Shown: positions 21,947 through 42,084 of the stretch, piece by piece
Position numbering within the stretch: the first letter of the stretch is position 1
How the letters are laid out: each line of letters starts with the position of its first letter
NCBI GenBank assembly: GCA_012026785.1
Contig: VEOW01000101.1
Location: forward strand, 1 to 42,084
DNA length: 42,084 nucleotides
From: Chloroflexota bacterium
GTDB lineage: Bacteria; Chloroflexota; Limnocylindria; Limnocylindrales; CSP1-4
Direction of reading: 5' to 3'
Made by a program: the position numbers and the translations under genes
Notes under the pieces: model-generated
Databases searched by the model: none
Seen by the model: the letters and a program-made list of their open reading frames with translations, nothing else
What the model was told of the DNA's origin: nothing

Positions 21947-22108
21947 CCCGGTGCGGTGGGCTGGTAGCCGCGCGTGACCTCGAGGGCGTGGTGCGGCCGG
22001 CGCGGTCGGACGCTCGCGGAAGGAGTCAGGGTCGCCCGGCGTCAGGCCCCCGGCCCGGGAGACAATAGGGCGGTCTTAGAGTCAACCGGAACGGGGTTCA
22101 GTCAAGCA

Positions 22109-25100: not shown

Positions 25101-25294
25101 TCCTCATCGCACGTCAGCTCGGCGATGCCTACTGGCTATACGTCGTCGACCAGTGCCAGGACGGCACGGGACGGCTCTTTGGCGTCTACCAGGATCCTGC
25201 CGAGCGGTTCGAGGGCCTGATGAAGGACCTGACCACAGTCGCGCTCCCCGGCAGCGCCCTTGCATCGGCTCGGGCGGGAGATTCGCCGACATGA
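22109..25294 (+). CDS. SNF2/DEAD-like helicase with C-terminal DUF3883-like domain (defence-associated); TTG start proposed
   Basis: FLLADEPGTGKTIMAGMYLREM (motif I), VVIDEAHR (II), LLMTATPHRGKEALF (III), VVVFTEFADTAEWL, VSTDAGNEGIDLQTAHVLVNWDIPWSLVRLEQRMGRIHRVGQ (V/VI); C-terminus AGWSVADVHLEPRGYDLLARKGRDQRSIEVKG. Confidence 0.92.
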   Translation: MPSFEVGQRVRLPGDSVLATVEAASETPSGWQLFVDNGSGAYRKVLLTPELAEQVTVVAEDGAAEPSVVLAGLWTEWMRAATLESKATTLATTPLRPYAHQTNAVYGSMLPQPRLRFLLADEPGTGKTIMAGMYLREMQRLGFVRKALVICPAHLVEKWRADFERFLGGGLRRITADTVREGALAIDHDFWVTSLDLASVNAQVQEAIRPDRVGWDVVVIDEAHRMTLSAQSYYQLGRLMSGAPRVLLMTATPHRGKEALFRGLLHLVDPDVFPSVEESDDLGRQLKPGAVHFLRRMKEDLVDYDGVTRLFKGRRAQNLSVALNATEEAFYQQALALVDQYFPPAAVTLAKMVYGKRAASSLYALRETLKRRRDLMGSDSPTHAAMLADPEDEDEAGRDLAKVVVEQSLSARAEKEDLKAAIRQLDQVLEKPDLAVSKWPRMVEECLSDNGILPGNGEQVVVFTEFADTAEWLVARFRDAGYTAERYSGRDPDPVRESVRQRFAKAEFQVIVSTDAGNEGIDLQTAHVLVNWDIPWSLVRLEQRMGRIHRVGQTRDVELYNLVATGTNEGQVLEVLLSNFVVAANQLDGKMFDSLSLLAELVNLDFEQTLARTYDSPERASAALATAKAATAERLAAAAKRAAAEEDALRSAVDIAKAVAALQEETLERINPRIVEAFLERLDHAGLLKVEAHAAGPGIFVVSGLEGTSLNRASALVATSGAALESARAAGADVSQALPLGPSDPAFRAIVDSATRNVRPALFEGGRLVDRTSVTDYTLVAYEAEVVEFGGQRRSTWPFLVRVDDTGSRSLRWEWLANLEPSALQPTALHPGRVLDADQRAADVVATERSRRGDVLDAWMTGAVVELERLPSALTSHIDDATTRVAARKRVEKAVENRLTELRRMAVVDVGEPRRLGWAAVTAAGAPLTTIEADSEEIAMRLVASLLRKAGWSVADVHLEPRGYDLLARKGRDQRSIEVKGVWDLASSRGVRMTGHELLIARQLGDAYWLYVVDQCQDGTGRLFGVYQDPAERFEGLMKDLTTVALPGSALASARAGDSPT

Positions 25295-28047
25295 GGATGA
25301 TCGAGCGGTGGTTCCCGTGCGCCGAGGTCAGCGACGCCTCCGAAAGCGGATGGGGCAGCGGCAAGAGCGAGAAGGCGCTGTTCATCTGGTTCGCGGCGAG
25401 GCCCCTCGCCCAGGCGAAGGCCGCCGTGATCACTAGCCTCCTGCCGTGGCCGGACGACACGCGGGAGCAGGAGCGACTCAAGGACCTGGTTCGCCGGGCG
25501 ATGACCGACCGGGACGCCGCGCACGATGAGCTCGTCCGGGAGCTTGCGAAGGCATATCCGAACGGCGCCTCGATGCTCGATCCTTTTTCCGGTCGGGCGA
25601 TGATCCCACTGGAGGCGGCTCGACTTGGCGTGAGGGCGTGGGGCATCGACTACGCGCCCGTCGCGACTCTCGCGGGGACCCTCCTCGCCGACTACCCGCT
25701 GCGTGATTGGTCAAGCGAGCCGCCCCTGCCAATCGGACCGCCACTCGGATTCGCGGAAGATCGGCTAACAGGTGATGTCGCGCGCGTCCTCGACGAGATC
25801 GGCCGCCGGTATGAGGCCTCCATGGCGGAGTTCTACCCGAAGATCAACGGTAAACAGCCATGGGGCTACCTGTGGGCGGTCACGCTGCCATGTCAGGAGT
25901 GCGGGCGTCGCTTCCCGGTGACCGGGTCGCTCGTCCTTCGGCACCCGCTACCTGCCAAGAAGGACCTAGGCCAGAGCTACCGCATCGCAGTCGACCGCGG
26001 CTTGGGGACGTTCCGCGCGGTCGTTCATGAGGGGCCGCCGATCGGCCAGCCGACGCTCGTGACGGTGACCCGTGGGGGCAAGGCGCAGCGCGGCAAGGCG
26101 GCCGTGTGTCCGTTCTGCGAGCACGTGCACCCCAAGGACGTGCACACTCGCCTCGCGGCCGAAGGCCTTGGCAATGACGCACTCCTTGTCGCCGCTGACC
26201 TTGACGACGTGATTGGCAAGGTATTCCGAGAGCCGACCTTCGAAGAGCGAGCCGCCGCTGAGGCCGCCACTGCCGCGCTCCGGAACGAATTGCCGTTCGG
26301 CTCCGGATTGCCGGCTGTTCCTGACGAGGCAATTCCCGACGGCGATTACGACACCGTGCGGCCATCGCTCTATGGGGCCGCTAGCTACGGCGAACTCTGC
26401 AACGACCGCCAGAGTCTGGGGTTCGTGCGACTATGCCGCGTTATCAACGGCTTCGCGGACGAGATGGGCGCGGCCGGGCTTAGTCAGGATTACCTAGCCG
26501 CTCTGGCGGGCTATGCGGCGGCCGGTTTCTGTCGGAAGCTCAAACGATCGACTCGAGGTGCCGCACTTCTGCCGATGCTCTATCCCACGAGTAACAGGGT
26601 TGCCGTCAACCACATCTTCGTCAATGAAGCCAGCATCGCCTTCAGTTACGACTACTTCGAGACAGGGCTCGGAGACGGACCTGGTTCCTGGCCGTCGATT
26701 GTTCACGACACGGTCGCTGTGCTTCGGAATCAGAGCATTCGCCGAGCGGGACGACCAGCGGTCGTACAGCGTGGAAGCTCCGTAGCGCTCCCACTCCCCA
26801 CCGCAGCTATCGATGTCGTGGTCACCGACCCGCCATATGACGACATGATCGACTACTCCGACGCCTCCGACCTCTTCTACGTCTGGCTAAAGCGCGCGCT
26901 CGTGTCCACGCATCCGGAGTTCGGGATGACAGCGGATCCGCGCGGGGTCCAGGAGAAGAGCGAGGAGATCATCGTCAAGCGGGGTGGGGCCGGCGTAGGT
27001 GACCACCGGACCCGCGAGTTTTATGACTCCATGCTCGCGAAGTCGTTCGCCGAGGCGCGGCGGGTAGTCCGCGACGATGGCGTAGTCACGATCGTCTTCG
27101 GTCACGGGGACCCCGAAGTCTGGCATCGGCTACTCGGAGCGATCACGGCTGGTGGCCTGTACCTGACCGGATCCTGGCCGGCCAAGACGGAGGCGGGCGG
27201 AAAGGCAGGCTCAGCGAACATCGTCACCACGCTGACGCTTTCTTGTCGACCCGCGTCGGCGAACCGCTCGGCTGGTCGGGTCGACGACGTCGACGACGAG
27301 GTTCGGCGCGAGGTCCGCGCACGCGTCCCCGAGTGGGAGCGAGCCAACCTCGCCTTGACCGACCAGCTCATGGCCTCGGCGGGGCCTGCCATGGAGGTTG
27401 TCGGCCGGTACTCTGCTGTGCTCGACCAGCTCGGCGAGCCGATCGACACAACTCGGTATCTCGTGCTGGCGCGCCGAGCCGTCGAGGAGGCAGCCGCGAT
27501 TAGGATCGAGGACCTGCCGCTCGAGACATTCGATGCCCGCACCCGCTTCGCGCTGTTCTGGGTTCGCCTATACGGCCGGGGAGTAGCTCCGAAGTCTGAG
27601 GCGCGTTGGCAGGCCATGGTCTCGGACATCGCATTGCCCGAGATCAATGACATCCTCCGAGATGGAGACGGCGGCAAGGGAGTGCGGATCGGGTTCGGGC
27701 GAGAGATGAGGGCTCCGATCGATGAGACCTCCGCCGTGATCGACGTCGCCCTCGCGATGGCTCGAGCCTGGCCGGAGGGACTCGCCGCTGTTGCCGAGGT
27801 CCTGGCCGCGAGTGGACGCGACGGCGAGGACCCGCACCTGTGGGCGGCGGTGGGGTTCTTGTCCGCGCGACTGCCTGACGCGGACGCAGATGTCCAAGCA
27901 TGGAATGGCATCGTGCGGGGACGGCGAACCGTCGCGTCTGCCACTCTAGGCGTCGTCAAGGAGCGCTCGATCAAGCTGGCCAGGCAGAAGCAAGCGGACG
28001 ATCAGATGCGACTCTTCGACCCGGTCGACGGAGGAGGCGAGGGATGA
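25291..28047 (+). CDS. DUF1156-type adenine-specific DNA methyltransferase with Zn-ribbon
   Basis: MLDPFSGRAMIPLEAARLGVRAWGIDYAP, VVTDPPYDDMIDYSDASDLFYVWLKR (DPPY), CQECGRRF...CPFCEHVHP zinc ligands; ATGA overlap with helicase gene. Confidence 0.92.
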   Translation: MRMIERWFPCAEVSDASESGWGSGKSEKALFIWFAARPLAQAKAAVITSLLPWPDDTREQERLKDLVRRAMTDRDAAHDELVRELAKAYPNGASMLDPFSGRAMIPLEAARLGVRAWGIDYAPVATLAGTLLADYPLRDWSSEPPLPIGPPLGFAEDRLTGDVARVLDEIGRRYEASMAEFYPKINGKQPWGYLWAVTLPCQECGRRFPVTGSLVLRHPLPAKKDLGQSYRIAVDRGLGTFRAVVHEGPPIGQPTLVTVTRGGKAQRGKAAVCPFCEHVHPKDVHTRLAAEGLGNDALLVAADLDDVIGKVFREPTFEERAAAEAATAALRNELPFGSGLPAVPDEAIPDGDYDTVRPSLYGAASYGELCNDRQSLGFVRLCRVINGFADEMGAAGLSQDYLAALAGYAAAGFCRKLKRSTRGAALLPMLYPTSNRVAVNHIFVNEASIAFSYDYFETGLGDGPGSWPSIVHDTVAVLRNQSIRRAGRPAVVQRGSSVALPLPTAAIDVVVTDPPYDDMIDYSDASDLFYVWLKRALVSTHPEFGMTADPRGVQEKSEEIIVKRGGAGVGDHRTREFYDSMLAKSFAEARRVVRDDGVVTIVFGHGDPEVWHRLLGAITAGGLYLTGSWPAKTEAGGKAGSANIVTTLTLSCRPASANRSAGRVDDVDDEVRREVRARVPEWERANLALTDQLMASAGPAMEVVGRYSAVLDQLGEPIDTTRYLVLARRAVEEAAAIRIEDLPLETFDARTRFALFWVRLYGRGVAPKSEARWQAMVSDIALPEINDILRDGDGGKGVRIGFGREMRAPIDETSAVIDVALAMARAWPEGLAAVAEVLAASGRDGEDPHLWAAVGFLSARLPDADADVQAWNGIVRGRRTVASATLGVVKERSIKLARQKQADDQMRLFDPVDGGGEG

Positions 28048-30941
28048 CCGCGGCGGTGACGCCCTGGTGGAACGCGATGCGGTTGCGACGCGAGATCGTG
28101 GCCGGCTCCGGCGTCATCGACGATGTCCAGATGTCGCTCTTCAACGCCGTCCAGGGGACCGCAGGAGAGCGCCCGCCCTACGCGGACGCCTCCTACTACG
28201 GCGAGATCACGCACCCGAGCCCGAACCTCGTCGAGTTCGTCGCGCGGGTGGCCGTCCGCCTCGGGGGTAGGGGGCGATACACAGCAGCCCCGGCGCTCTG
28301 GCGACTCGACCAAGCGATGGGCGGCGGCAAGTCGCACGCCATGATCGGCCTCTGGCACCTCGCCGCCCACCCTGTGGAGTTCCGGGCCACTGACATCGGC
28401 GGCGCGGCGTGGGCGACGGCGTCGAGGATCATCGGCGGGCAGCTTCCCGCCGACCTCGACAACCCTCAAGTTGTCGTTCTCTCGTGCGACAACATGACAG
28501 CCGGGCGGGGGGACCCGTCGATCGACGGTCCCGCGGCGACGCTCTACGAGCGCTTCCTCTGGCGGCTGTTCGGTGGCGACCACTCGCTGTTCAAGCGCTA
28601 CCAGCCGCACTTCGCTGACAAGTCGAAGATTGCCGAGGCGATCGGCGCGATCGGACGGCCCGTGCTGATCCTCGTCGACGAAGTGCTCGACTACGTGCGG
28701 CAGCTCTCGCTGGCCGAGCACGGCGACCTCGCGACTCGGGACATGGCCTTCCTGCGTGCACTGACCGACACGGTCAACGACATCCCGCACGTCGCGATGG
28801 TGGTCGTGATGATCCGCTCCGAGGATGACTCGATCGTCCTCGACGCCGCCGGTCTGGCTCGTCGCCAGGAGATCGAGGACCTGCTCGTCCGCAACGGCAG
28901 GAAGACCACGGTCACGTCGAACACCGACTTTGCCGAGATCATTCGCCGGCGGCTTTTCGAGACGAGCGCGCCCGCGGAGGTGGTCGGCGCGACCAGCGAC
29001 CTATACGAGCGGACCATGAAGGGCACATGGGCCGAGCGAGTCTTCGCCCACCTGCCACGTCCGGCGAGTGGCGAGTTCGCAAGCGAGGTGGCCAGGTGCT
29101 ACCCGTTCCACCCTGCACTGATCCACCTCGCCGAGCAGGAGTGGGCGCCGGTCTCGGGCTTCCAGAAGGTTCGGTCGACCATACTCATCTTCGCGGCGAC
29201 GGCGTATGCGCAGTCTGAGCGCGGCCGGGCGGACGAGTGGGCACCGCCCCTCGTCGGGCCTGGCGACCTTCCGCTGTCCTCTCCCCAGGTCCGCGAGGCG
29301 ATCATCGGGTCCGGCCTCATCGCCGACGACAAGACCGCCGCCAACTATCGTCAGCTCGCCGCGACGGACATCGTCAGCGACGACGGTGATCGCGGCGCCG
29401 CGCGGCTGCTCGACATCCATCGGGCCAAGGCACCGTTTGCGGCCGCGAATCCGCGCGCCGCCGAGCGCATGGCCACGGCGCTCTTCCTGCTCTCCATCGT
29501 CGGCGCCCGGGCGCAGGGCCGGCAGGGGGCGACGGAGGGCGAGCTGAAGGCCGCCGGGTTCGTCCCGGACGTTTCGTTCGACGTGGCGCAGGCTGAATCC
29601 GTCCTCGCCGAGCTGGGCGACCCGGATGCCGGCCTGGCCGCGCTCGAGAAGATCGAGGGCCGAGGTGGGCAGCCGGCGCGCTGGTTCCTGTCGACCAGGC
29701 AGACGCTCAACATGCTGTTCCGGGCCGCTCGCTCGAGCGTCACGGACGATGAGCGCGACGAGGAGTTCGTGCGCGTCGTCGATCGGCTTGCCACGACTGG
29801 ACCCTTCAAGACGAAGCTGGTTGTCGAGGCCAAGGCCGAAGAGCAGGACCCGAGGCCGCTCCGCACGATCCTTGAGACGGCGAGCATCGACGATGCCCGC
29901 AACACGCGGCTTGTCGTCCTCGATCCGCGACGGTTCAGCTTCCTGAACGGGATCGACCACGAGACGCGCAGCGCGATCCGGGCAGCGATGGGCGTCGGAT
30001 CGGACAAGTTGCCGGTGCAGTGGGCGTCGTCGGCCGTGTTCGCGGTCGTCAACACTCAGCGGCGCCGCAACGCGCGAGCCGCGGTCACCGACTACGTCGC
30101 CTGGAGCCGCGTCGTGGACAACGCCGCAGTCAAGGCCGACGACGACATGAAGGTGGAGGGGGCGGAGAAGCGATCCGCGGCCCGCAAGGTCATGGACGAC
30201 GCGGTCCGCCGTGCGTACCAGCACATCGTCTACCTCGGCCGCGGCGACGGCGGCGAGGGCAGGGCCGACAAGGAGTTCCGGTTCGAGCAGGACAATCAGT
30301 CCGCTCTCGATGGCAGCATCGTCTGGGCCAAGTTGAAGGACCTCGGCAAGACGGTCGGCGTCGGCGAGTTCACAGCCAAGGCCCTCCTTCACAACTTGGC
30401 GGATGCCGACTACTCGCGCCCGCTGGACGAGGTGCGAGACCTCTTCTGGAACGCACCGCGGATGCCCCTGCTACCGGGTGGTGATGCCGACCTGCAGCGC
30501 GCGATCTTCGAGGCCGTACTCTCCGGCCAGCTGACCTTGGTGGGCGACGACGGGACCGAGCGCGTGGTCACGAAGGCGAGTGAGATCGGCGTCGGCTCCG
30601 CGTCGCTTCGACTCGCTCACCCTTCTGAGGTAGGGCCCGAGCCTTCCGAGGGACTGGAGTCAGGACCTCAGCCGGGTCCGGAGCTAGGGCCTGAGCCGGG
30701 CGGTTACGGCTCGACCCCGGATGTGCAACTGAAGGTCTCGCTGAACACGAACCTGGAGGACGTCGGTCGGAGATCGGCGGTGTTCAAGCTCCTCGACGAC
30801 CTTGCAGCCGCGGTCGACGGCCAGGAGGCGTCCCACATCCAGATATCGGTCAGCGTCGTGGTCCCCGAAAAGAGGGCCGAGCGCCTCTCGGGTCGTGCTG
30901 AGGCAGCGGGCGGATCGACAAGTTCGACGCCACTCGACTAA
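28044..30941 (+). CDS. DUF499-type AAA+ ATPase
   Basis: ALWRLDQAMGGGKSHAMIGLWHLA Walker A, VLILVDEVLDYVRQL Walker B; QVVVLSCDNMTAG; adjacent DUF1156 methylase; ATGA overlap. Confidence 0.88.
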   Translation: MTAAVTPWWNAMRLRREIVAGSGVIDDVQMSLFNAVQGTAGERPPYADASYYGEITHPSPNLVEFVARVAVRLGGRGRYTAAPALWRLDQAMGGGKSHAMIGLWHLAAHPVEFRATDIGGAAWATASRIIGGQLPADLDNPQVVVLSCDNMTAGRGDPSIDGPAATLYERFLWRLFGGDHSLFKRYQPHFADKSKIAEAIGAIGRPVLILVDEVLDYVRQLSLAEHGDLATRDMAFLRALTDTVNDIPHVAMVVVMIRSEDDSIVLDAAGLARRQEIEDLLVRNGRKTTVTSNTDFAEIIRRRLFETSAPAEVVGATSDLYERTMKGTWAERVFAHLPRPASGEFASEVARCYPFHPALIHLAEQEWAPVSGFQKVRSTILIFAATAYAQSERGRADEWAPPLVGPGDLPLSSPQVREAIIGSGLIADDKTAANYRQLAATDIVSDDGDRGAARLLDIHRAKAPFAAANPRAAERMATALFLLSIVGARAQGRQGATEGELKAAGFVPDVSFDVAQAESVLAELGDPDAGLAALEKIEGRGGQPARWFLSTRQTLNMLFRAARSSVTDDERDEEFVRVVDRLATTGPFKTKLVVEAKAEEQDPRPLRTILETASIDDARNTRLVVLDPRRFSFLNGIDHETRSAIRAAMGVGSDKLPVQWASSAVFAVVNTQRRRNARAAVTDYVAWSRVVDNAAVKADDDMKVEGAEKRSAARKVMDDAVRRAYQHIVYLGRGDGGEGRADKEFRFEQDNQSALDGSIVWAKLKDLGKTVGVGEFTAKALLHNLADADYSRPLDEVRDLFWNAPRMPLLPGGDADLQRAIFEAVLSGQLTLVGDDGTERVVTKASEIGVGSASLRLAHPSEVGPEPSEGLESGPQPGPELGPEPGGYGSTPDVQLKVSLNTNLEDVGRRSAVFKLLDDLAAAVDGQEASHIQISVSVVVPEKRAERLSGRAEAAGGSTSSTPLD

Positions 30942-31157: not shown

Positions 31158-31517
31158 GTGAGGTCGTTGGCTGAGAAGCTCCACCCCGACCACTTCTCAG
31201 CGATGAGCGGCAAGATGGCCGCGATCATCGGATATGTCCTCGGCGAGTCCTGGACCGAGCCCGAGATCAAGGCAATGTCGGTGACGTCGGACGGCTACGT
31301 CACGTCGGAGAGCGAGTTCCTTGGCGAAGCGGCAGACCTTGATAGGAACATCCTGAACTTGCTCGTTGCGGCGGACCTGAGCGATGAGGAGCGGTCGGAG
31401 TTCGAGCGGCTGTACCGGGACCGCGTGGACGACTGGCGACCCGTGCTCTCGGGTCCCGCGCCTGCGACCGGCCGACTCATTCGGCCAGACTTCGGGGCAC
31501 CGGCCGCCCGCGCCTGA
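31158..31517 (+). CDS. Hypothetical small acidic protein at the end of the defence operon
   Basis: 119 aa, GTG start, plausible codon usage and acidic helical content (DLDRNILNLLVAADLSDEERSEFERLYRDRVDDW). Confidence 0.6.
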   Translation: MRSLAEKLHPDHFSAMSGKMAAIIGYVLGESWTEPEIKAMSVTSDGYVTSESEFLGEAADLDRNILNLLVAADLSDEERSEFERLYRDRVDDWRPVLSGPAPATGRLIRPDFGAPAARA

Positions 31518-31714: not shown

Positions 31715-31759
31715 AAGACTCTCTTGAACACCGGCGACGCCGATGCTACGGTCGCTGGT

Positions 31760-32053
31760 ATGGAGCACGTCATCCCAAGCGGCGCACTTCGGCGACAACC
31801 CGGTATCTGCCTCGCCCGCGCCGCACAGGGCGAGACGTTCGTGGTCCTCCGGCACGGCCGCCCGATCGCCATCCTTCGGCCACCGCGAGACGAGGACGTC
31901 ACCGAGCGGCGCTCCGCCACGCTGCTTTGGCGGAACCTGCGGGAGTTGCTTTCCGAGGGACAGCGGAAGGCGCTGCTGATCACCTGGTACGGCATGGGAA
32001 CGGCCGTCCTTGAGCCGCTTCCGTCCAACTGGGAGGAGGGAGACGAGCTGTGA
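31760..32053 (+). CDS. Phd/YefM-family antitoxin-like protein
   Basis: GICLARAAQGETFVVLRHGRPIAILRPP matches the Phd-fold pattern; ATG at 31760 preferred over TTG 31724. Confidence 0.7.
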   Translation: MEHVIPSGALRRQPGICLARAAQGETFVVLRHGRPIAILRPPRDEDVTERRSATLLWRNLRELLSEGQRKALLITWYGMGTAVLEPLPSNWEEGDEL

Positions 32054-32646
32054 TCGCTGCCGAGCTGCGGACGATGCCGATGCACAAGCTCCGGGACAAG
32101 GCCAGTCTGGCCATCGCCTACGCCGCGGCTGGCACACCGGTGATGGTTTTCACCCATGGCGACCCCTCGGCCGTCCTGATCTCGCCGGAAGAGACCGAAC
32201 GCTGGATCGCGATCGAACGTTCGCTCTCGGCGCTGCACGGGCTCGACGTGTACCCAGAGCTCGCCGATGACACCGCGAGCCTCGCTGCGGTCGTTGCCGG
32301 TCGCGAGCGTCCCAACGCGACCGCCATCAGGAGGCTCGCGCGCGAGGAGCGCCAGATCCTCGACATCCCGCGGACGATCGGGATCACCCACATCCAGCGC
32401 CGCCTTGCGTCGATCCTCGACGAGGTGGCCGAGGGTCGGCCGACGACGATCTACTCGTCGGGAGAGTTCGTCGGTGTCCTCATCACGCCCGCCGAGTACT
32501 ACCGCCTTCGCAAGCTCTCGCGGGTCGTGGCGTGGTTCCGGACCGCCGGGCTCGAGCTCGCGACTGCCGACGAAGCGGCGATCGCCGACTTCGTCCGCCG
32601 CTTCCGCGAGGGCCGCTCCTCGGCCGCCGAATCCGCGGCCGGCTGA
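32050..32646 (+). CDS. Tandem-domain Phd/YefM-like protein (two antitoxin-like domains)
   Basis: MHKLRDKASLAIAYAAAGTPVMVFTHGDPSAVLISPEE and ITHIQRRLASILDEVAEGRPTTIYSSGEFVGVLITPAEYYRLRKL; overlaps upstream gene. Confidence 0.72.
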   Translation: MIAAELRTMPMHKLRDKASLAIAYAAAGTPVMVFTHGDPSAVLISPEETERWIAIERSLSALHGLDVYPELADDTASLAAVVAGRERPNATAIRRLAREERQILDIPRTIGITHIQRRLASILDEVAEGRPTTIYSSGEFVGVLITPAEYYRLRKLSRVVAWFRTAGLELATADEAAIADFVRRFREGRSSAAESAAG

Positions 32647-32659
32647 GGAAGGCGACCGA

Positions 32660-33052
32660 ATGCGTCCTCGCGCCCGCGGCTTTGCGGCCGCTTACCTGCC
32701 GCTTATCGCCGGCTTCGCGGCGGCTCTCCTCCTGCTCACCTGGGCCGACCCCGCCCTCGCGGCCGACACCGTTCCGTCTGGCGCCCAGAAGGCGCTCGCC
32801 CCGGTCACCAAGATGATCGCGACGCTCGTCGCGATCGCGATCGGGCTCGGTATCGCGATCTGTGGTGCGGTCATCGTCTGGGGTGGCGTGGAAAAGACCC
32901 TCGCGGGCGCGAACACCGACGCCGAGCACCGCGCCCAGAAGCGCATCGCCAACGGCATCATGGGCCTCGTCTGGATGGTGCTCGCGGGCGTCATCGTCAG
33001 CACGATCACCGCGATCGCCGTCGCGTACGGCCTCATCGAGCAGCCGTTCTAG
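32660..33052 (+). CDS. TrbC/VirB2-like small membrane protein (pilin-like)
   Basis: Signal peptide ending ADPALAA, two hydrophobic segments (MIATLVAIAIGLGIAICGAVIVWGGVEKTLAG; IMGLVWMVLAGVIVSTITAIAV). Confidence 0.65.
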   Translation: MRPRARGFAAAYLPLIAGFAAALLLLTWADPALAADTVPSGAQKALAPVTKMIATLVAIAIGLGIAICGAVIVWGGVEKTLAGANTDAEHRAQKRIANGIMGLVWMVLAGVIVSTITAIAVAYGLIEQPF

Positions 33053-33065
33053 CGGTGTCGGCTCG

Positions 33066-34160
33066 ATGGTCACCCTCGCGCGACCCAGGCGGCCCGTACC
33101 ACAGGTAATCCTCCGGCTGACCGCGCCGGCGCCCATCGCGCCGCTCGCGCTGCTCCTCCTGGCCATGGCGCTCGGTGGCCTCGGTCTCACCGTTCTGGGC
33201 CGTTCGCCCAGCATGCCGGCGACCCCGGCGACCGTGATCGAGACCGAGGCCGCCCATGATCCGCACGGCGACGTGCCGCTCATCGGCGACCCGATCCGCG
33301 AATTGACGATCTGGTGGTCCGACCGGCTGGCCGACGCCAACAAGGGCGCCCTCGACAGCATGCGCGGCCGGGCGTTGACGCCGATCGACCCCTTGGAAGA
33401 CGCGGTCGTGCAGGACCTCTACGGCAAGATCCTGCTCGTCACGATCCCTTTGCTGACGCTCGGCGGGATGATCCTCGGCTACCTGATCATGACCAGCCGG
33501 ACGTCCGGCGAGTCGGCCTACACGGCGCGTGCTGTCACGCCGCGCTTTGTCGTCGGGGCAACGCTCTCGATCCTGGGGCTGTTCCTCGTGTCGGTCCTCG
33601 CCCAGTTCGTTATTGCGACCGATCTCGCGATGGTCGGCGTCTCGCTCCCCGATGGCGCCGTGGGCGATCCGCATGACTGGCCGGCCTCCGGCGGCGTGTT
33701 CACGGTGCTCCAGCACGCGTCCTTCGACCCGCGAGTTCCGGAGGGGCCCGGCAACTGGAACACCGGTGCCTGGCTGTCCGCGGGCCTCTCAGCGGCCGTG
33801 CTGCTGAACTTCGTTCAGATCCTGAACTCGGCGCTCGGGGGGTACGAGCGGCTGCTCGTTCTCGTCGGCCCGATCTGCCTCGCCGCCTACGCCCTGCCGG
33901 CCACCCAGCGGATCACGAACCTGTGGCTGCGGCTCCTGCTGGCGATCCTCTCGGTGCGCTTCGCCTGGACGATCGTCTTCGTCCTGTTCAGCGTCGAGTC
34001 GCTGGGTTACATCGGCTCCGACGGCAACCCGCCCACCGTCGCCGACACCAACTACCTCCTCGGGCTCGCGACCGGCGCGGCATTCCTCATGGTGCTGCTG
34101 GTCATCGTGCTCATCCCGCTGGCGCTGTCCCGATCGGGTCCGCTGCGGACCGAATCGTGA
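33066..34160 (+). CDS. Polytopic membrane protein, TrbL/VirB6-like
   Basis: 364 aa with multiple TM segments, between VirB2-like and PrgI-like genes. Confidence 0.55.
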   Translation: MVTLARPRRPVPQVILRLTAPAPIAPLALLLLAMALGGLGLTVLGRSPSMPATPATVIETEAAHDPHGDVPLIGDPIRELTIWWSDRLADANKGALDSMRGRALTPIDPLEDAVVQDLYGKILLVTIPLLTLGGMILGYLIMTSRTSGESAYTARAVTPRFVVGATLSILGLFLVSVLAQFVIATDLAMVGVSLPDGAVGDPHDWPASGGVFTVLQHASFDPRVPEGPGNWNTGAWLSAGLSAAVLLNFVQILNSALGGYERLLVLVGPICLAAYALPATQRITNLWLRLLLAILSVRFAWTIVFVLFSVESLGYIGSDGNPPTVADTNYLLGLATGAAFLMVLLVIVLIPLALSRSGPLRTES

Positions 34161-35569
34161 ACGAGCGCGGGATGGTCGACGTTCCCGAGAACGCCGTCCG
34201 CGACGAACCGATCGCGTTCGGCATGACCGGAGTCCAGCTCGGCATCTGCGGCGTCGCCGTCCTGGTGGCCGCGATCCTCAATCTCCTGCCGATCTGGGAG
34301 CCGATCCGCGTGATCGTGATGGTCCTCGGCGCGGGACCGTTGGTGATCGTCGCCGCCCTCCCGATTCGGGGGGAGCCCGCCTACCGCTGGCTCGTGCGCT
34401 GGATCCGTTTCCTTCGGGGCCGCCGCGTCTGGCGCGCCGAACTCGTCGCGTCAAATAAGCCGCAGATAAGTGGCGGTGAATACGGTAGTGGCGACGGGCT
34501 GGCGTCCGGGGTAGGGGATAGGGAATCCGTCCCATTGGCCGGAGCCGCCCCGATGGAGGACGATGCGACGGAGAGGATCGGCGACGCTCAGGGCGCCCAG
34601 GAGCGTGCGGACATGCAGGACCGGCCTCCGCGGCTTCGGTTGGTCAGAACCCAAGCCCCGACGGATGCCATCGACGAGCGCGACGGAGCCGCCACGCCGG
34701 AGAGCGGCGCGGTGCCGCACCTACTCGGTGGTCTGCGGATCGTCTGCTTCACGTCGTTCGTCGGCGGCGTCGGCAAGACGACCCTGGCGGTCGAGGCCGC
34801 GTCGCGCGTCGGTTCCCGGGCCCGCTACCGCACGCTCGACGGCGAGCTTCGGCCGCTTCGCGTCCTCCTCCTCGATGCCGCGCGGACCAATCCGGCAGCC
34901 GCGTTGCGGCTGGGCCTCGATGCGGCCACCGTCTCGCGGAGCCTCACCCGCTACGACTGGCCGGATCCAATCACGTTCGAGAGGCAAGCGGTGGACACGG
35001 CCCGCGGCGTAACGCTGCTGACGCTGCCGCAGCTGCCGATGCAGGGTCTCGGCCCGGAGCTGCCGTTCGGCCCGATCGAGGCGGCCGGCCTCCTCGACGC
35101 AGCGGAGCAGGCCGGCTTCCAGCTCCTGGTCGCCGACCTGGGCAACCAGATCGAGGAGGGTCATCGCCATCTCATCGGCCAGGCGGCGACCGTGCTAGGC
35201 GTCGTGACCCCGCGGGTCGAGGCACTGCCCGACGTCATCCGGATCACCTCATACGTCCGCGCCATGGGCGCGGGTCGCAAGCTCGCCTTCGTGGCCAACC
35301 GGTCGGCCGATCTCGGCTCGCTGCCGGCGCTGGTCGACGGCGAGCAGGTGCCTCTCGTCGCGACGATCGACGACCTCGGGGCCTTCGACATCGCGGGCGA
35401 CCGGGGCGTCCCGGCGTGGACCGACGACCCCGGGGTGGAGGTCAGCCTCCAGCCGCTGGCGACGGCCGTCTGGCCGCTGTTCTCGGGTGTCCCCGCCTCG
35501 AGCGAGCACCGCTTCCGGAGCGTCCTTGCCGGCGTCCGTCGGCTGCTGCACGCGGAGGAGCGGCGATGA
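34157..35569 (+). CDS. PrgI-like membrane domain fused to CpaE/MinD/ParA-like ATPase
   Basis: N-terminus VPENAVRDEPIAFGMTGVQLGICGVAVLVAAILNLLPIW...PAYRWLVRWIRFLRGRRVWRAEL (PrgI-like); C-terminus GLRIVCFTSFVGGVGKTTLAVEAASRV...VLLLDAARTNPAAALRLGL; GTG overlaps upstream TGA. Confidence 0.75.
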   Translation: MNERGMVDVPENAVRDEPIAFGMTGVQLGICGVAVLVAAILNLLPIWEPIRVIVMVLGAGPLVIVAALPIRGEPAYRWLVRWIRFLRGRRVWRAELVASNKPQISGGEYGSGDGLASGVGDRESVPLAGAAPMEDDATERIGDAQGAQERADMQDRPPRLRLVRTQAPTDAIDERDGAATPESGAVPHLLGGLRIVCFTSFVGGVGKTTLAVEAASRVGSRARYRTLDGELRPLRVLLLDAARTNPAAALRLGLDAATVSRSLTRYDWPDPITFERQAVDTARGVTLLTLPQLPMQGLGPELPFGPIEAAGLLDAAEQAGFQLLVADLGNQIEEGHRHLIGQAATVLGVVTPRVEALPDVIRITSYVRAMGAGRKLAFVANRSADLGSLPALVDGEQVPLVATIDDLGAFDIAGDRGVPAWTDDPGVEVSLQPLATAVWPLFSGVPASSEHRFRSVLAGVRRLLHAEERR

Positions 35570-36858
35570 GCGAGCTGCCGGCGGAGTTCCGCGACCGGCC
35601 ACCGGTGAGCGCGAAGACGCTGGGTTCGATCCGCAGCCGCCTCGTCGCGCGCCTGGCGCCGGAGGTGCTCAACCCGTTCGACCGGACGCCCGAGCGCGAG
35701 GCGACGCTCAAGGCGGCGATCGGCGACATCCTCGCCGATCCGGAGCTCGCCCTCGCCGCGACCCCGGCGCTGGTGGCCTCTGTCGAGGCGGCGGTGTGCG
35801 GGCTCGGGCCGTTGCAGCCGCTCGTCGACGACCCGCGCGTCTCCGACATTCTCGTCAACGCCCCAGACGCGGTCTTCGCCGAGCGGGCGGGCCGGCTCGA
35901 GGAGACGGCCGTCGCCCTCGGGTCGGCCGAGGCCCTGGTCGACATCGCCCCGCGTATCGCCGCGCTCGCGGGGCGCGAGCTCTCGGTCGCCCACCCGATC
36001 GTCGACGCCCGCATGCCCGACGGCTCTCGCGTCAACGCCGTCATCCCGCCCGTCGGCGGGCCGTACCTCGCGATCCGTAAGTTCAACCGGCTCCGGCTGG
36101 ACCTCGCTCCCGGTGGTCGTCACGGACGCGATTGGGTGACCGAGGGCGGAATGAGTCCCGAGATGGCTGACTTCCTCGCCCGGATGGTCCGGGCCAAGGC
36201 CAACATCCTCGTCGCCGGCGAGACGGGCGCCGGCAAGACGACGCTCCTGCGCTCGCTGACCGACCTGTTCGATCCGGCCGAGCGCGTCGGCGTCGTCGAG
36301 GACACCGCGGAGCTGGCACTCGAGAACCCTGACCGGTTCAACCTCGAGACGATCCACCCGCACGACCTCGCCACAGGCGAGGCTGAGAGCCGGCTGCTGG
36401 ACGTCGGCGATCTCGTCGCAAATGCGCTCAGGATGCGCCCGGACCGGCTGATCGTCGGCGAGATCCGCCTGCCGAAAGAGGCCTTCTACACGCTCCAGGC
36501 TCTCCATTCCGGACACGACGGCTCGGCGACGACGATCCACGCCTCTTCTGCCGAGGACGCATTGTTCCGTTTGGAGCTCCTCGCCCGCCAGTCGATGCGC
36601 GACCTGACAGTGGCCGACCTACGGACGTACATCGCCCGGGTCTTCGACCTAATCCTCGTCCTGCGCCGGCTGCGCTCCGGGCGCCGTGTCCTTCGCCAGG
36701 TCGCCGCCCTCGATGGCATCGGTACCGATGCCGCGTACCGCATCGTCGACGTCTTCCGAAGCGTTCGGGCAGACGGGCCCGACGCTGTGACCTGGGTCAC
36801 GACCGACGGTTGGGAACCCTCCGACCGCCTGGCGACGAGGATGGAGCTCGAAGCGTAG
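35566..36858 (+). CDS. tadA: TadA/CpaF-type secretion ATPase
   Basis: LQPLVDDPRVSDILVN, PIVDARMPDGSRVNAVIPPV, NILVAGETGAGKTTLLRSL, RPDRLIVGEIR, LHSGHDGSATTIHA. Confidence 0.95.
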   Translation: MSELPAEFRDRPPVSAKTLGSIRSRLVARLAPEVLNPFDRTPEREATLKAAIGDILADPELALAATPALVASVEAAVCGLGPLQPLVDDPRVSDILVNAPDAVFAERAGRLEETAVALGSAEALVDIAPRIAALAGRELSVAHPIVDARMPDGSRVNAVIPPVGGPYLAIRKFNRLRLDLAPGGRHGRDWVTEGGMSPEMADFLARMVRAKANILVAGETGAGKTTLLRSLTDLFDPAERVGVVEDTAELALENPDRFNLETIHPHDLATGEAESRLLDVGDLVANALRMRPDRLIVGEIRLPKEAFYTLQALHSGHDGSATTIHASSAEDALFRLELLARQSMRDLTVADLRTYIARVFDLILVLRRLRSGRRVLRQVAALDGIGTDAAYRIVDVFRSVRADGPDAVTWVTTDGWEPSDRLATRMELEA

Positions 36859-36860
36859 TG

Positions 36861-37742
36861 ATGGATACGAGGCTCCTCTCCGCTGTCCTGGCCGGCCTCG
36901 CGGTTCTCTTCGGCCTGCTCGCGTTGTTTCCAGGCAAGGCGAACGATGAGTCAGGGGTCGGCGAGTCAATCCGTGGCTGGTGGGGGAGGCGGGTGGCCGG
37001 GGCCGCCGAGCTGATTGCCAAGGCCCGCCTCGAGATGGCGCCGCGAACGCTGATCGCGCTCGCCATCGCCGGCCCGCTCGTCCTCGGTTCGTTCGGGCTC
37101 CTGCTGTCGCCGATCGTCGCGCTCGTCGGGGTCGCCATCGGCCTGCTCCTGCCCCGGGCATATCTCGACTACCTCGTCCGCGGGGAGGCTCAGGCGGCCG
37201 ACGAGGATGCGCCGCGGATCCTGCGGGCGATGGTCAACAGGGCCGCGGCCGGCGGCACGTACCCCGACCTCTTCGCCGCGGCGGCCGAGACGGCGCGCCA
37301 TCGCTGGGTCCGCTCGGACTTCGAGGAGGCGCAGTCACGCTACTACGCCGCCGAGCCGCCGGCCGAGATCCTCCTCGCCCTTCGTGGTCGGCAGGCCAGT
37401 CGCAACTTGCGCCTCGTGGTCGATGCCCTCTCGGTCGCGATCCGGACCCAGCAGCCGACGTCGGCAGCGGGTCAGGTCCTCGCCTCACTCGGCGAGGCGG
37501 CGCGGGCCAACCGCGCGATCGCCCGCCAGGCGGCAGCCGAGAGCCGGGGTCTGCGCATGCAGGCGGCGATCCTCGCGATCGTCATCCCCGCGATGTTCCT
37601 GTATCTGTCGGCGGTCAACCCCGAGCTCGTCGGACCGGTTACCTCGACGGCACTCGGCCAATACGTCCTGCTGCCGGCGGCGGTGCTGCTCGAGATCACG
37701 GGCGTCGTGCTGTCGTGGCGGGTCACGAGGCTCGAGGCGTAG
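36861..37742 (+). CDS. tadB: TadB-like type II/IV secretion inner-membrane protein
   Basis: DAPRILRAMVNRAAAGGTYPDLFAAAAE...LRMQAAILAIVIPAMFLYLSAVNPE, position after TadA. Confidence 0.85.
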   Translation: MDTRLLSAVLAGLAVLFGLLALFPGKANDESGVGESIRGWWGRRVAGAAELIAKARLEMAPRTLIALAIAGPLVLGSFGLLLSPIVALVGVAIGLLLPRAYLDYLVRGEAQAADEDAPRILRAMVNRAAAGGTYPDLFAAAAETARHRWVRSDFEEAQSRYYAAEPPAEILLALRGRQASRNLRLVVDALSVAIRTQQPTSAAGQVLASLGEAARANRAIARQAAAESRGLRMQAAILAIVIPAMFLYLSAVNPELVGPVTSTALGQYVLLPAAVLLEITGVVLSWRVTRLEA

Positions 37743-37745
37743 CCG

Positions 37746-38654
37746 ATGGTCGAGACGAGCGCCCTCCTCACCGGCATCGCCGTCTTCAGCCTGCTGATGT
37801 TCATCTTCGATCCCTGGCTGTTCCCGGCCCAGCCGAAGCTCGACGCGGTCCGGGCGAGCGTCCTGTCGCGTGAGCGGTACGAGCGGCTCGTGACGGCGGA
37901 GCGACCGTGGTGGGAGCGGCTGCTCGCTCCGGTTGCGGCGCGACTCGGCACGGCGACGCCGGCCCTCGCCAGCCAGGTCAGCGAGCGCGACATCGTGCGG
38001 GCCGGGTTCGACCCGGCGACCCTGACGCCGGCCGAGATCTATGCCGCGAAGCTCGTCCTCGGCGCCGCGGCCCTGGGGGCCGGGCTTGCGCTCACGCCGC
38101 TCTTCGAGCCCGCGCTCATCGTTGCCCTGCCGGTGGCCTTCGTCGGCTACGTCTTCCCGACCGAGTACCTGGCGTCGATGAGCCGACGCCGCAAGGCCCA
38201 GCTCCTCCGCGAGCTGCCCGACTTCCTGGCGCTCGTGCGACCCCTGTCGGAGAGCCCGGGCCTCGAGATGGCGATGTCGAGAGTCGCCGACGAGCTCCAC
38301 CCCGCTTCGGTGGGCCAGAACCTGCTCGCCAGCCAGATCCGCTCGGCGATCGCGGCTTACGGGGCCGGCGTCAACTTCTACGCCGCCCTCGCCGACGTCG
38401 CCGCCGCGGCCGATCTGGAGGAGCTCGACGACCTGGCGGTGGGGCTCGGCCAGGCCCGCAAGACGGGCAAGGGCGTGCCGGATGTCCTCGCCGAGCACGA
38501 GCGTTCCCTGCGCGAGGCCGAGCGCAACCGTCTCTTCGGAGCCGCCTCGACAGTCCAGCCGAAGCTGGCAGGCATCCTCGCGGCGGTCTATCTGCCGATG
38601 TTCATCGTCCTGATCGTCGTACCCCTGTTCATCTCGACGCTCGGGCGGATTTGA
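37746..38654 (+). CDS. tadC: TadC-like type II/IV secretion inner-membrane protein
   Basis: AQLLRELPDFLALVRPLSESPGLEMAMSRVADEL...LAEHERSLREAERNRLFGAASTVQPKLAGILAAVYLPMFIVLIVVPLF. Confidence 0.87.
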   Translation: MVETSALLTGIAVFSLLMFIFDPWLFPAQPKLDAVRASVLSRERYERLVTAERPWWERLLAPVAARLGTATPALASQVSERDIVRAGFDPATLTPAEIYAAKLVLGAAALGAGLALTPLFEPALIVALPVAFVGYVFPTEYLASMSRRRKAQLLRELPDFLALVRPLSESPGLEMAMSRVADELHPASVGQNLLASQIRSAIAAYGAGVNFYAALADVAAAADLEELDDLAVGLGQARKTGKGVPDVLAEHERSLREAERNRLFGAASTVQPKLAGILAAVYLPMFIVLIVVPLFISTLGRI

Positions 38655-38668
38655 AGGGAGGCCGGACC

Positions 38669-38860
38669 ATGCTGAGAACCCTCGCGACATTCGTGCGCCG
38701 GGCGTGGCGCGCGCTCCGCGCCGACCAGCGCGGCCTGACGACGCTGGAATACGTCATCGCCGCCGGGATCATCCTCGTCGTCCTCTCGGCCGCGATCCTT
38801 GCCTGGAACAACGGGCTCGCCCAGCGGATTGGCGACCTCGTTGGCCAGCTTCTGGCCTAG
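38669..38860 (+). CDS. Flp-type pilin
   Basis: 63 aa; DQRGLTTLEYVIAAGIILVVLSAAILAWNNGL matches class IVb prepilin G/xxxxEY + hydrophobic stretch. Confidence 0.82.
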   Translation: MLRTLATFVRRAWRALRADQRGLTTLEYVIAAGIILVVLSAAILAWNNGLAQRIGDLVGQLLA

Positions 38861-38874
38861 GGACGGGCGGGCGA

Positions 38875-39300
38875 GTGACGGTGGCGACGCGACCAGCTGG
38901 CCGGGCGGACCAGCGCGGCGGCGAGCGCGGATTGGCGACCGTCGAGGCCGTCCTCGTCGTGCCGCTCGTTCTCGTTCCGATCCTGGTCGCGGTGGTGGTC
39001 TTCGGCCGGCTCGCGCACGCCCGTCTCGTGCTCGACGCCGCAGCAGCAGCAGGGGCGCGGCAGGCGGCGGTCGTCGGGGGCGACGGATCGCTGGTCCGGA
39101 CACGGATCGCCAGCGAGCTGGCCGACGGCGGTCTCGACGCCAACCGGGTTCGAGTCATCGTCGAGCCGGCAGTCGCTGACTGGGGCGAGCCTATCCGCGT
39201 CCAGCTCTCGCTCGATGAGGAGGCCGAGATCCCGTTTGCCGGCTCTTGGGCGGTGCCACTCGAGGCCGAGTTCGTGACCCGGAGCGAGGTGACCCGGTGA
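38875..39300 (+). CDS. TadE-like pseudopilin
   Basis: ERGLATVEAVLVVPLVLVPILVAVVVFGRLAHARLVLDAAAAAGARQAAV; GTG start. Confidence 0.82.
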   Translation: MTVATRPAGRADQRGGERGLATVEAVLVVPLVLVPILVAVVVFGRLAHARLVLDAAAAAGARQAAVVGGDGSLVRTRIASELADGGLDANRVRVIVEPAVADWGEPIRVQLSLDEEAEIPFAGSWAVPLEAEFVTRSEVTR

Positions 39301-39788
39301 CAGCCTATCGAGGCGGCGAGCAAGGCCAGGTCGCGGTGTACGCCGTCCTGCTCTTCCCGGTGCTCATGCTCGTTCTCGCTCTGGTCCTGGCAGTCGGAAC
39401 GATCGAGGGGCTGCGAACGCGCCTGCGGGCGCAGCTCGACATGGCTGCCCTCGTCGCGCCCCAGGCGCTCGATCCCGACCCCCTTGCGGCGGGCGAGCCA
39501 CCCAGGCTGGACGTGGCCGAGGCCGAGCGCCTGGCCCGCGAGTACCTCGCCCGAAACCTCGCCGCGACGGGCGACGTGCTTGTCGGCTCGCCCGACGAGA
39601 TCGCCGCGGGCGCGCAGGTCGCCGTCTCCAACGAGCCGGGGCGTGATCCGATCACGGGCGCCTCGAACTCCGCCCCGACCGTCAGCATCCAGATTGCCGT
39701 CCCAGCCCGGATCCCGCTTCTCGGACTGGCCGGGATCGCGCCCGTCGTGACCATCACGATCGACGGGTCCGCAGCCGCGAGGACGTGA
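39297..39788 (+). CDS. TadE/TadG-like pseudopilin
   Basis: GEQGQVAVYAVLLFPVLMLVLALVLAVGTIEGLRTRLRAQLDMAALVAPQAL; GTG overlaps upstream TGA. Confidence 0.72.
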   Translation: MTAYRGGEQGQVAVYAVLLFPVLMLVLALVLAVGTIEGLRTRLRAQLDMAALVAPQALDPDPLAAGEPPRLDVAEAERLAREYLARNLAATGDVLVGSPDEIAAGAQVAVSNEPGRDPITGASNSAPTVSIQIAVPARIPLLGLAGIAPVVTITIDGSAAART

Positions 39789-39789
39789 C

Positions 39790-40344
39790 GTGAACCGCAT
39801 TCCGGAGAGCAACCGCCCGCTCGTCGTCGTGGCGATGGCCGTCGTCGTGCTGGTTCTCGTCGCGGTCGGCGTCCTCCTTGTCGGGCAGCTCGGTCCGTCT
39901 CCCGCTCCCCCGACTTCGCTCCCGCCCACGGCGACGGCCGCTCCCTCGGTCGATGCGTCCACGCCAGAGGGAGCGACCCGCGCGTTCTTCGATGCCGTCG
40001 TGGCCGCGCGCCGGACCAACAATCCCGAGTTGATCGAGCCGTTCGTCACGAGCCGCGATTCGTCGGCATACCTCACCGTCGCCGGCTTCCTGGCAGGTCA
40101 GCAGGAGGCGGGTAAGGCGTCGATCACGACGCTTCACGACCTCACGGATATCAACGTTGAGCAGACCGGCGACAGCGCGCGCCTCACGGCATCGCTGTTG
40201 GAGGCTGGCTACGACATCGACCTGGACACCGGCCAGCCGCTCGAGTCGCCCGTGACGCTCGATCCCCGACGACTCACGGTGGAGCTCCGACGGACGGCGG
40301 GCGTCTGGAAGGTCGAGAGCTTCGAGACCGGGGCGGCCCCATGA
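39790..40344 (+). CDS. Membrane-anchored extracytoplasmic protein, unknown function
   Basis: Single N-terminal TM (LVVVAMAVVVLVLVAVGVLLVGQL), Pro/Thr linker, then ~130-aa domain (ATRAFFDAVVAARRTNNPELIEPFVT...VWKVESFETG). Confidence 0.75.
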   Translation: MNRIPESNRPLVVVAMAVVVLVLVAVGVLLVGQLGPSPAPPTSLPPTATAAPSVDASTPEGATRAFFDAVVAARRTNNPELIEPFVTSRDSSAYLTVAGFLAGQQEAGKASITTLHDLTDINVEQTGDSARLTASLLEAGYDIDLDTGQPLESPVTLDPRRLTVELRRTAGVWKVESFETGAAP

Positions 40345-41537
40345 TCAAGGCCGCACTCGCTGCCGTACGAGCGGTAGCGCTCCTTCTCGTTATGGCGTCG
40401 GCCGCAGATGCCTACGACGGCATCGACGTTCAAGTCGAGACCTGGACCTCGGACGGCGGTCGCGGCTACGTCGGCGTCCAGACGGCAGGGCAGTGGGCTC
40501 CGCCCGACACCAGGGCTTGCCTGCGGTACTACTCATCGTGGCGTCACATCGCATGGATCGGCACGGAGCCAATCCGAGACGAGTGGTTCGTCACCGTCTT
40601 CACCTGTGACGGGAGCGCGGTCAATCCGCTCGAGCCGACGATGGTACTCACCAGCCGGACCCGTCCCGGCATCGGCGTCCGTCGCGAGGCATCTGGGCTA
40701 CTCCGCCTCGATCTCGGAGTCGCGGTCGAACCGGCGATCGCGCCGGCCGGCTCAGTCCGCACTGTCACCGCCGCGCTGTCAGGGAGCTGGTGGGACGCCA
40801 TCGGCGATGAGATCAGCGCCTACGTCATCCGCAATTCGCTGCGCGTCCGACGCTGGACGGTCGACTTCGGGGACGGCACCGTCGCCAGCGTCCCACCCGA
40901 ACCCACTATGCCGTTCCGGCTTGCCACGACGCACGTCTACGGCCCTGGCTCGTTCGAGGTGATCGTCACGGCCCACGTCACAGGGCAGGCCTACGGAGCG
41001 TTCTTCTCGCCTGCCGGCATCCCATACGAGGATGTCATCCCGTTCGCGATCGACATCACCAACGCAGCCGCGGGCATCTCGGGGCTGCCGATCGAGTACC
41101 TGCCGCCGGTCGTCGTGCCCGGTGGCAGTCCGTCGGGCACGCTGCCAGGTGGCGTGGCGATCCCTGCTGACGCCGCGGGTCACACCCAGATCTGGTGGCC
41201 GCGCGGACTGCCGTGCGACCTGTTCATCCGTGCGCTCGTAGAAGAGGAGGGCGTGATGCGCTCGGGCGGCGTCGTCATCGGCGGCGCGACCACCCGCCTC
41301 GTGAGCTACCGCTATCTCGGCGGCGGAAACGGCGCGTCGCGCGCCTCGCCACAGGGCGAGTACGAGGCCGACGAGCCGATCCGGATCCAGTGGAATACGC
41401 CACTGCCGGACAAACGCTCGTACCCCGTCCGCGTCCAGCTCACCGTCGAGACGACGTACGACGACGGGACGGTCCGGACGTTCGAGTTCTCGCGCTCGAT
41501 CGCCGCGACCGTCGTCTTCTCCGCGATCAGCCACTGA
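40341..41537 (+). CDS. Secreted protein with PKD-like domain
   Basis: Signal-like N-terminus; VDFGDGTVASVPPEPTMPFRLATTHVYGPGSFEVIVTAHVTG PKD-like signature; ATG overlaps upstream TGA. Confidence 0.75.
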   Translation: MIKAALAAVRAVALLLVMASAADAYDGIDVQVETWTSDGGRGYVGVQTAGQWAPPDTRACLRYYSSWRHIAWIGTEPIRDEWFVTVFTCDGSAVNPLEPTMVLTSRTRPGIGVRREASGLLRLDLGVAVEPAIAPAGSVRTVTAALSGSWWDAIGDEISAYVIRNSLRVRRWTVDFGDGTVASVPPEPTMPFRLATTHVYGPGSFEVIVTAHVTGQAYGAFFSPAGIPYEDVIPFAIDITNAAAGISGLPIEYLPPVVVPGGSPSGTLPGGVAIPADAAGHTQIWWPRGLPCDLFIRALVEEEGVMRSGGVVIGGATTRLVSYRYLGGGNGASRASPQGEYEADEPIRIQWNTPLPDKRSYPVRVQLTVETTYDDGTVRTFEFSRSIAATVVFSAISH

Positions 41538-41555
41538 CAGCGAAGGAGGATCGAG

Positions 41556-42084
41556 ATGAGAGCGCCACGCGGCATCTACCTCGCCCTCTTCCTCGTCGCC
41601 GCCCTCGGCGCGAGCGCGCTCGTCTACCTCGGCCAGCCGCGCAACGGCATCGTTCGGGCGACGACCGACATCGCCGTGCTCACGCCGATCACGGCCGACA
41701 TGGTCGAGATCGTCAGCGTCGGTCCGGCCGATGCGCCGCCGAACGCCGCGCGCAGTCTGGATGCCGTCATCGGTCGATACGCGTCAGTCCCGATCCTGGC
41801 CGGCCAGGATGTCGACGTCCGGATCCTCGAGACGAACCCGGGCCAGCTGGCGTTCGGGTTTGGCGCGCCGCTCGAGGCCGGCCAGGTCGCGTTCGCCGTC
41901 CCCGTCGAGCCCGGCCAGGCCGTCGGCGGCGCGCTCGTTCCCGGGGCGCGGGTGGACGTCGTCGCCGTCCCGAACGCGCTCAAGACGCAGGTCTCCGGCA
42001 CCGACTCGCCGGCGGCGGTCGTCCTCGGTCTGGGGCTGGTGGTCCTGACGATCCGGACACCCGAGGGCCAGCAGCTGAGCGACG
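41556..42084 (+). CDS. cpaB: CpaB/RcpC-like Flp pilus assembly protein (SAF domain), truncated by window end
   Basis: MRAPRGIYLALFLVAALGASALVYLGQP...TDIAVLTPITADMVEIVSV...VPILAGQDV...VAFAVPVEPGQAVGGALVPGARVDVVAV; open to window end. Confidence 0.82.
   Translation, partial: MRAPRGIYLALFLVAALGASALVYLGQPRNGIVRATTDIAVLTPITADMVEIVSVGPADAPPNAARSLDAVIGRYASVPILAGQDVDVRILETNPGQLAFGFGAPLEAGQVAFAVPVEPGQAVGGALVPGARVDVVAVPNALKTQVSGTDSPAAVVLGLGLVVLTIRTPEGQQLSD

Follow-up and report, generated by a model that had tools for sequence, protein, structure and literature searches.

The window, 42084 bp of DNA, corresponds to the entire contig C3 of a 3.77-Mb Chloroflexota genome assembled in 260 contigs. Every gene from 31724 to 42084 lies on the plus strand; neighbouring genes overlap by 4 bp or are at most 18 bp apart, and the 3' edge of the contig falls inside cpaB. 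The operon starts with two Phd/YefM-type genes (31724-32646). The first (31724..32053), a probable operon regulator, has a Pfam PhdYeFM match below cut-off (3e-4) and keeps its position in most loci; the second (32050..32646) contains two Phd stretches (Pfam, 4.6e-13; NCBIfam phd_fam, 1.8e-11). They are followed by genes for a type IV secretion system (T4SS) pilin, a TrbL/VirB6-like protein, a PrgI::MinD-like fusion, TadA, TadB, TadC and Flp, and then by TadE, TadE/G, an NTF2-like protein, a PKD protein and CpaB. The co-directional string from a VirB2/TrbC-like gene to cpaB announced by the original prediction is thus present with all its listed genes. The prediction also placed the operon beside a defence system, and PADLOC identified HmaABC upstream on the plus strand, probably as cargo: an HmaA-like helicase (21974..25294, 2.7e-85), an HmaB-like DUF1156 methylase (25153..28047, 4.4e-40) and an HmaC-like DUF499 ATPase (27900..30941, 1.7e-35; Pfam DUF499, 2e-12). 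A 119-aa protein is encoded between HmaC and the Phd pair (31158..31517, plus strand) and was detected by tblastn upstream of some other copies (G059, L058 and L066).

The first gene after the Phd pair (32660..33052) encodes a VirB2/TrbC-like T4SS pilin, with a match to T4SS_pilin PF18895 over cut-off (2.2e-6). The next (33066..34160) encodes a TrbL/VirB6-like polytopic membrane protein. The window protein alone has no Pfam match; TrbL/VirB6 PF04610 is matched by 7 of the 11 members of its alignment (best 2.3e-4), and the profile aligned by HHalign to a TrbL_4-like protein of a Streptomycetaceae plasmid (94%, 1.8e-7), unrelated membrane proteins used as controls scoring 1% or less. HHalign of the window TrbL against the Sulfobacillus TrbL returned nothing, and the structure model (pLDDT 50) was too poor for a structure search. 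Together with the PrgI part of the third protein, these two leading proteins fall, by family and profile matches, in T4SS families, as had been predicted. Further downstream, the 'SnoaL-like' gene (39790..40344) encodes a membrane-anchored protein that was modelled by AlphaFold2 as a transmembrane helix followed by an NTF2-like fold (pLDDT 81). Foldseek matched this model to NTF2-like folds; VirB8 was not among the listed matches, and the predicted topology is compatible with a VirB8 role.

The third protein (34157..35569, 470 aa) combines domains of both systems. PrgI, the counterpart of VirB3, occupies residues 9-86 (PF12666, 2.2e-6, over the curated cut-off), and residues ~194-430 form a MinD-superfamily ATPase, detected by CbiA and by a match to the MinD structure 4v02 (3.5e-8). 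The ATPase motif reads SFAGGVGKTT and lacks the lysine that opens the usual KGGVGKT. PrgI was found in 10/10 fusion homologues scanned and CbiA/MinD in 9/10. A PrgI-like fusion had been foreseen at 34157-34450; PrgI is confirmed, but this interval is too short for the protein and the MinD-like partner had been overlooked. tadA is usually accompanied by a CpaE/TadZ-type ATPase; the partner of PrgI is a putative ATPase of this CpaE/TadZ-like kind. The fusion had no match in a plasmid collection, a phage collection or viral contigs, and we therefore rejected a phage or plasmid origin.

The Tad genes follow directly. TadA (35566..36858), an ATPase of the VirB11 superfamily, matched T2SSE (3e-40); its best NCBIfam model was TIGR03819, 'TadA family conjugal transfer-associated ATPase', below its cut-off (1.8e-69). 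TadB (36861..37742) and TadC (37746..38654) matched T2SSF (9.5e-6 and 6.7e-7, respectively). The Flp pilin (38669..38860) has a weak Pfam match (Flp_Fap, 0.024, below cut-off), a conserved position and the expected prepilin site G/LTTLEY, read directly in QRG/LTTLEYVIAAG. Two pseudopilins over the cut-offs of their families come next, a TadE-like protein whose start codon is not fixed (38857..39300; PF07811, 9e-10) and a TadE/TadG-like protein (39297..39788; Tad PF13400, 1e-5). Behind the NTF2-fold gene lie the gene for an exported PKD-domain protein (40341..41537; PKD, 0.0013, below cut-off; conserved position) and cpaB/rcpC, cut by the contig end (41556..42084; SAF, 1e-7; RcpC, 2e-7; TIGR03177, 2e-14). 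No CpaC secretin was seen within the operon. A prepilin peptidase, which the original prediction suggested looking for, exists as one PF01478 gene per genome, located on a contig other than that of the operon. The host genome also contains a separate, ordinary Tad locus on contig C202, where a receiver-domain (REC)::CpaE protein is encoded beside a CpaB, TadA, TadB and TadC sharing just 25-38% identity with their window counterparts. This divergence and the REC::CpaE protein indicate that the window operon represents a second, specialised type of Tad system.

An assembly chimera was rejected: an independent assembly, FR_1, matches the window at 98.8% over 17.7 kb, a stretch that extends from the Hma genes to inside cpaB. 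FR_1 is an indel-rich MAG titled Acidimicrobiia and holds two operon copies, one on the contig matching the window; the MAG carrying this contig is presumably misbinned. We found identical gene order in 17 distinct loci of Limnocylindria-type Chloroflexota (Chloroflexi/Limnocylindrales MAGs), three of them in the host genome itself; several loci in this count are cut by contig ends and the two FR_1 copies are counted apart. The same order in 17 loci and in an independent assembly places the arrangement beyond chance. Among 83 genomes of the class, 10 contain the fusion at a threshold of E<=1e-30, and the set of genomes with VirB4 is identical. Identical sets would arise by chance with a probability of 1/C(83,10) = 4e-13 if genomes were independent, which they are not fully. 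Carriers have a scattered distribution that spans seven genera and two families, with up to 4 fusion copies per genome, and in several of them the two halves of the system lie on separate contigs yet co-occur. Comparison of the C3 and C177 copies gave dN/dS values of 0.12-0.52 for the genes compared, indicative of purifying selection. The sequence evidence supports a real operon, conserved in uncultured soil and water Chloroflexota, in which T4SS and Tad sets are kept together as originally proposed. Neither outcome that the prediction had named as refuting it was thus obtained, the leading proteins matching T4SS families and the two sets being conserved jointly.

The original prediction noted that VirB4, VirD4 and relaxase genes are absent from the window and may lie downstream. 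In six loci (G059, G019, C29 of the host genome, L057, L061 and L069), cpaB is followed directly by virB4. The Tad genes come after virB3 and virB4 after cpaB, so that a complete Tad set is wedged between virB3 and virB4. A virB1-like gene for a wall hydrolase with SLT and M23 domains then follows in G059, C29, L057, L061 and L069, whereas ~4.6 kb of other genes separate it from virB4 in G019. Genes for a coupling protein and for a Replic_Relax protein come next, and were found with VirB4 in each copy examined. VirB4 matched P-loop_TraG (3e-14) and, as best NCBIfam model, conjugal CD1110 (4e-55); the coupling protein matched DUF87 and TrwB_AAD_bind (9e-5, over cut-off). The suggestion was borne out in relatives for VirB4 and the coupling protein, with Replic_Relax PF13814 as a candidate nickase; neither a MOBP (PF03432) nor a MOBF (PF08751) relaxase was found in three host genomes.

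In the host genome, the Tad half is present on C3, C177 and C55, and the VirB4 half on C29, C82 and C70. On C177, C82 and C70 one half does not adjoin the other, the C177 pilus half having no VirB4 alongside, and the window end shared no words with C82 or C29 that would join the contigs. Tad copies are 89% identical between C3 and C177 and 80% for C55; VirB4 copies are 80% identical between C70 and C82 and 67% for C29. These divergence patterns suggest that C3/C177 correspond with C70/C82 and C55 with C29. C55 stops at about residue 169 of TadC and C29 begins at about residue 184, so an assembly gap has probably divided a single element between the two contigs. Elsewhere, IS elements or cargo can separate the halves: contig C64 of G064 has ~32 kb between cpaB and virB4, beginning with a large serine recombinase. 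In G019, the 3' end of virB4 recurs as a 31-bp copy, 87% identical, bordering the ~4.6 kb of other genes just behind virB4.

Several features point to mobility. The G059 region ends with PRTRC-like genes and a tyrosine integrase, 300 bp from a tRNA-Glu gene whose 3' end faces the element. No att repeat or second att copy was found in G059, because its contig begins inside the element and the other end is lost. The PRTRC-like genes are of A, B and ThiF type, and similar genes end C29 and the G064 region. Defence genes (restriction-modification, Hma or similar) adjoin 9 of the 12 loci with at least 2 kb of readable upstream sequence. Besides HmaABC in the window, these are a type I restriction-modification system (C177), type III systems (C55, L061 and L069), HmaC (L065), HmaC with HEC-05 (L063), a DUF499/DUF1156 pair (L066) and ShosA (G059); among the remaining loci, the PADLOC scan covered L067, which had no match, but not G019 or L068. 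Nine MinD-like loci of relatives, a weak background control made of partly short loci that are not Tad loci, had no match to these defence proteins. The patchy distribution, multiple copies, integrase beside tRNA-Glu, PRTRC-like genes and defence cargo together favour a mobile element over a fixed organelle, in line with one of the two options that had been proposed, a mobile element with a hybrid transfer/adhesion apparatus.

We consider it probable that the operon is the pilus and mating-pair half of a chimeric T4SS-Tad conjugation machine of Chloroflexota, presumed to be monoderm, carried on integrative elements that bring defence genes with them. TadA would power TadB and TadC to assemble a Flp pilus, from prepilins processed by the host's single prepilin peptidase, which the machine must then borrow, and this pilus would hold the recipient cell. 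The MinD-like part of the fusion could position Tad assembly at the T4SS base, because the PrgI/VirB3 half is proposed to dock on VirB4. Forming the channel and opening the wall would be the task of the VirB6-like, VirB2-like, NTF2-fold and SLT/M23 proteins. Element DNA would be fed through by the coupling protein, working with the Replic_Relax protein, and would be landed by the tyrosine recombinase, whose gene lies near tRNA-Glu in one relative. Repression of the operon is the probable role of the Phd-type pair. A stricter version, in which the fusion unites T4SS and Tad pilus as a single physical machine, with Tad assembly anchored where VirB3 meets VirB4 and DNA transfer strictly dependent on the Flp pilus, is more tentative and in our judgement falls somewhat short of an even chance. 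If true, it would be the first described chimera of a T4SS and a type IVc pilus, and a vehicle spreading defence islands in Limnocylindria. As VirB3 is fused to a putative Tad-type localisation ATPase, the coupling of both machines is testable via one protein.

The same parts could instead form a contact-dependent machine for adhesion or protein delivery that has lost DNA transfer, its copies spreading passively in defence islands. The missing canonical relaxase in three genomes, the C177 pilus half standing without VirB4 beside it and the exported PKD protein that is always present would all suit such a machine. We nevertheless regard it as unlikely, given that every copy examined has, alongside VirB4, a coupling protein and a gene for Replic_Relax, and that integrase, PRTRC-like genes and patchy distribution argue against it.

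A DNA-import machine like the archaeal Ced system, which is assisted by type IV pili (PMC12102498), appears less probable still: CedD is the best NCBIfam match of the coupling-type ATPase, although far below its cut-off (2.5e-11), whereas VirB4 is far closer to conjugal CD1110 and the genes, mobile and patchily distributed, are accompanied by an integrase and Replic_Relax. That two unrelated operons became neighbours by chance is barely credible. The halves can indeed be separated by IS elements or cargo, but the PrgI and MinD-like domains share one reading frame, with PrgI matched in all 10 homologues scanned and CbiA/MinD in 9, and we rejected chance neighbourhood on the conservation of gene order in 17 loci and the 10/10 co-occurrence in genomes. 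The chimeric conjugation machine remains the reading that we prefer. It bears on how monoderm bacteria might establish contact for mating when they lack a classical conjugative pilus, and such a machine would provide the defence islands of an abundant, uncultured phylum with a vehicle.

A literature search found no Tad-T4SS chimera in Chloroflexota; related combinations exist elsewhere. The Sulfobacillus thermotolerans plasmids pY0017 and pL15 are described as carrying a nonpheromone conjugation system with T4SS and T2SS homologues, sharing with our loci MinD-like, TadA, TadB/TadC-like, TraG-like and VirB4 proteins and a lytic transglycosylase (PMC6803676; region also seen here). Unlike in these loci, their genes are scattered over ~25 kb and the relaxase is typed MOBP; TadA and VirB4 are 34% and 27% identical, respectively, and the fusion is unmatched in the plasmid collection. 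The actinomycetotal plasmid NZ_CP108778 of Embleya sp. NBC_00896 encodes, all within ~35 kb, PrgI, TrbL-like, VirB4, coupling, Replic_Relax and SLT/NlpC proteins together with SAF/CpaB, TadA, TadB, TadC, TadE and TadG. However, PrgI and a weak MinD/TadZ-like candidate are separate genes there, the Tad genes come after the T4SS genes, and TadA is 34-37% and VirB4 34% identical. A common origin with the Tad genes of Embleya or Sulfobacillus is unsupported, the window TadA being no closer to theirs than to the host's own ordinary Tad ATPase. The shared gene sets suggest that both deserve reading as one functional class with these loci.

Cutibacterium acnes plasmids p15.1.R1 and p09-9 have a tad locus together with conjugation-related genes (PMC5696575); these are separate neighbouring loci, their functional link is left open by the authors and we found no VirB3 fusion reported for them. 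IncI/R64 and PAPI-1 combine a T4SS with a type IV pilus, which aids transfer in liquid in the former and is essential in the latter, and mycobacterial plasmids combine a T4SS with a T7SS (PMC12857230). The hosts of R64 and PAPI-1 are diderm, their pilus is of another class than Tad/Flp, and a VirB3::TadZ fusion is not described there (PMC12857230). In pCF10-type monoderm T4SS (MPF FATA), virB6 precedes prgI(virB3), which normally adjoins virB4 (PMC12857230). Our loci share VirB6, PrgI(VirB3), then VirB4 and a VirB1-like protein, with VirB7, 9 and 10 not recognised, but differ in having nine Tad-type genes between virB3 and virB4 as well as a VirB2-like pilin. The hybrid thus has precedents, chimeras of a T4SS and another pilus being already known; its new feature is the VirB3 fusion, which, by sequence search and among the collections and systems compared, is found only in these Chloroflexota loci.

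Tandem Phd/YefM antitoxin-like genes stand at the start of the operon (31724-32646 in the window) and are likely to encode repressors; the pair comes first in most loci, and a recognised toxin partner is absent.

Directly past cpaB, contig C177 of the same genome carries (L007, 15912-17375) a short ORF rich in TFTEVRDERTDEER-type repeats that adjoins the gene for an ATP-grasp protein, in which an MvdD pre-ATP-grasp domain was found. The two genes may form a graspetide (RiPP) cluster where the VirB4 half would stand. The genes separating the two halves in the related genome G064 (C64) include one (L095, 5105-8356) whose product unites N6/N4 methylase domains and ResIII/DEAD helicase domains in one polypeptide, possibly a single-chain R-M enzyme. 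In G019, about 4.6 kb is inserted at the virB4 3' end (C4, about 32000-36590; L037/L031), and beyond the insert the virB4 end recurs as an imperfect 31-bp repeat, which looks as though this end had served as an integration site.

Two JAOSJK01 contigs titled Acidimicrobiia are probably misbinned and indel-rich: L058 shares 98.8% identity with C3 of this Chloroflexota genome, and L062 is similar to C177, a type I R-M neighbour being common to both.

The right arm of the elements carries PRTRC-like genes (those for proteins A and B and a ThiF-like protein) in G059 (L036, 1911-4999), G064 (L096, 18994-19839) and own contig C29 (L054, 8784-11386), the last with an additional short ORF of ubiquitin-like appearance.
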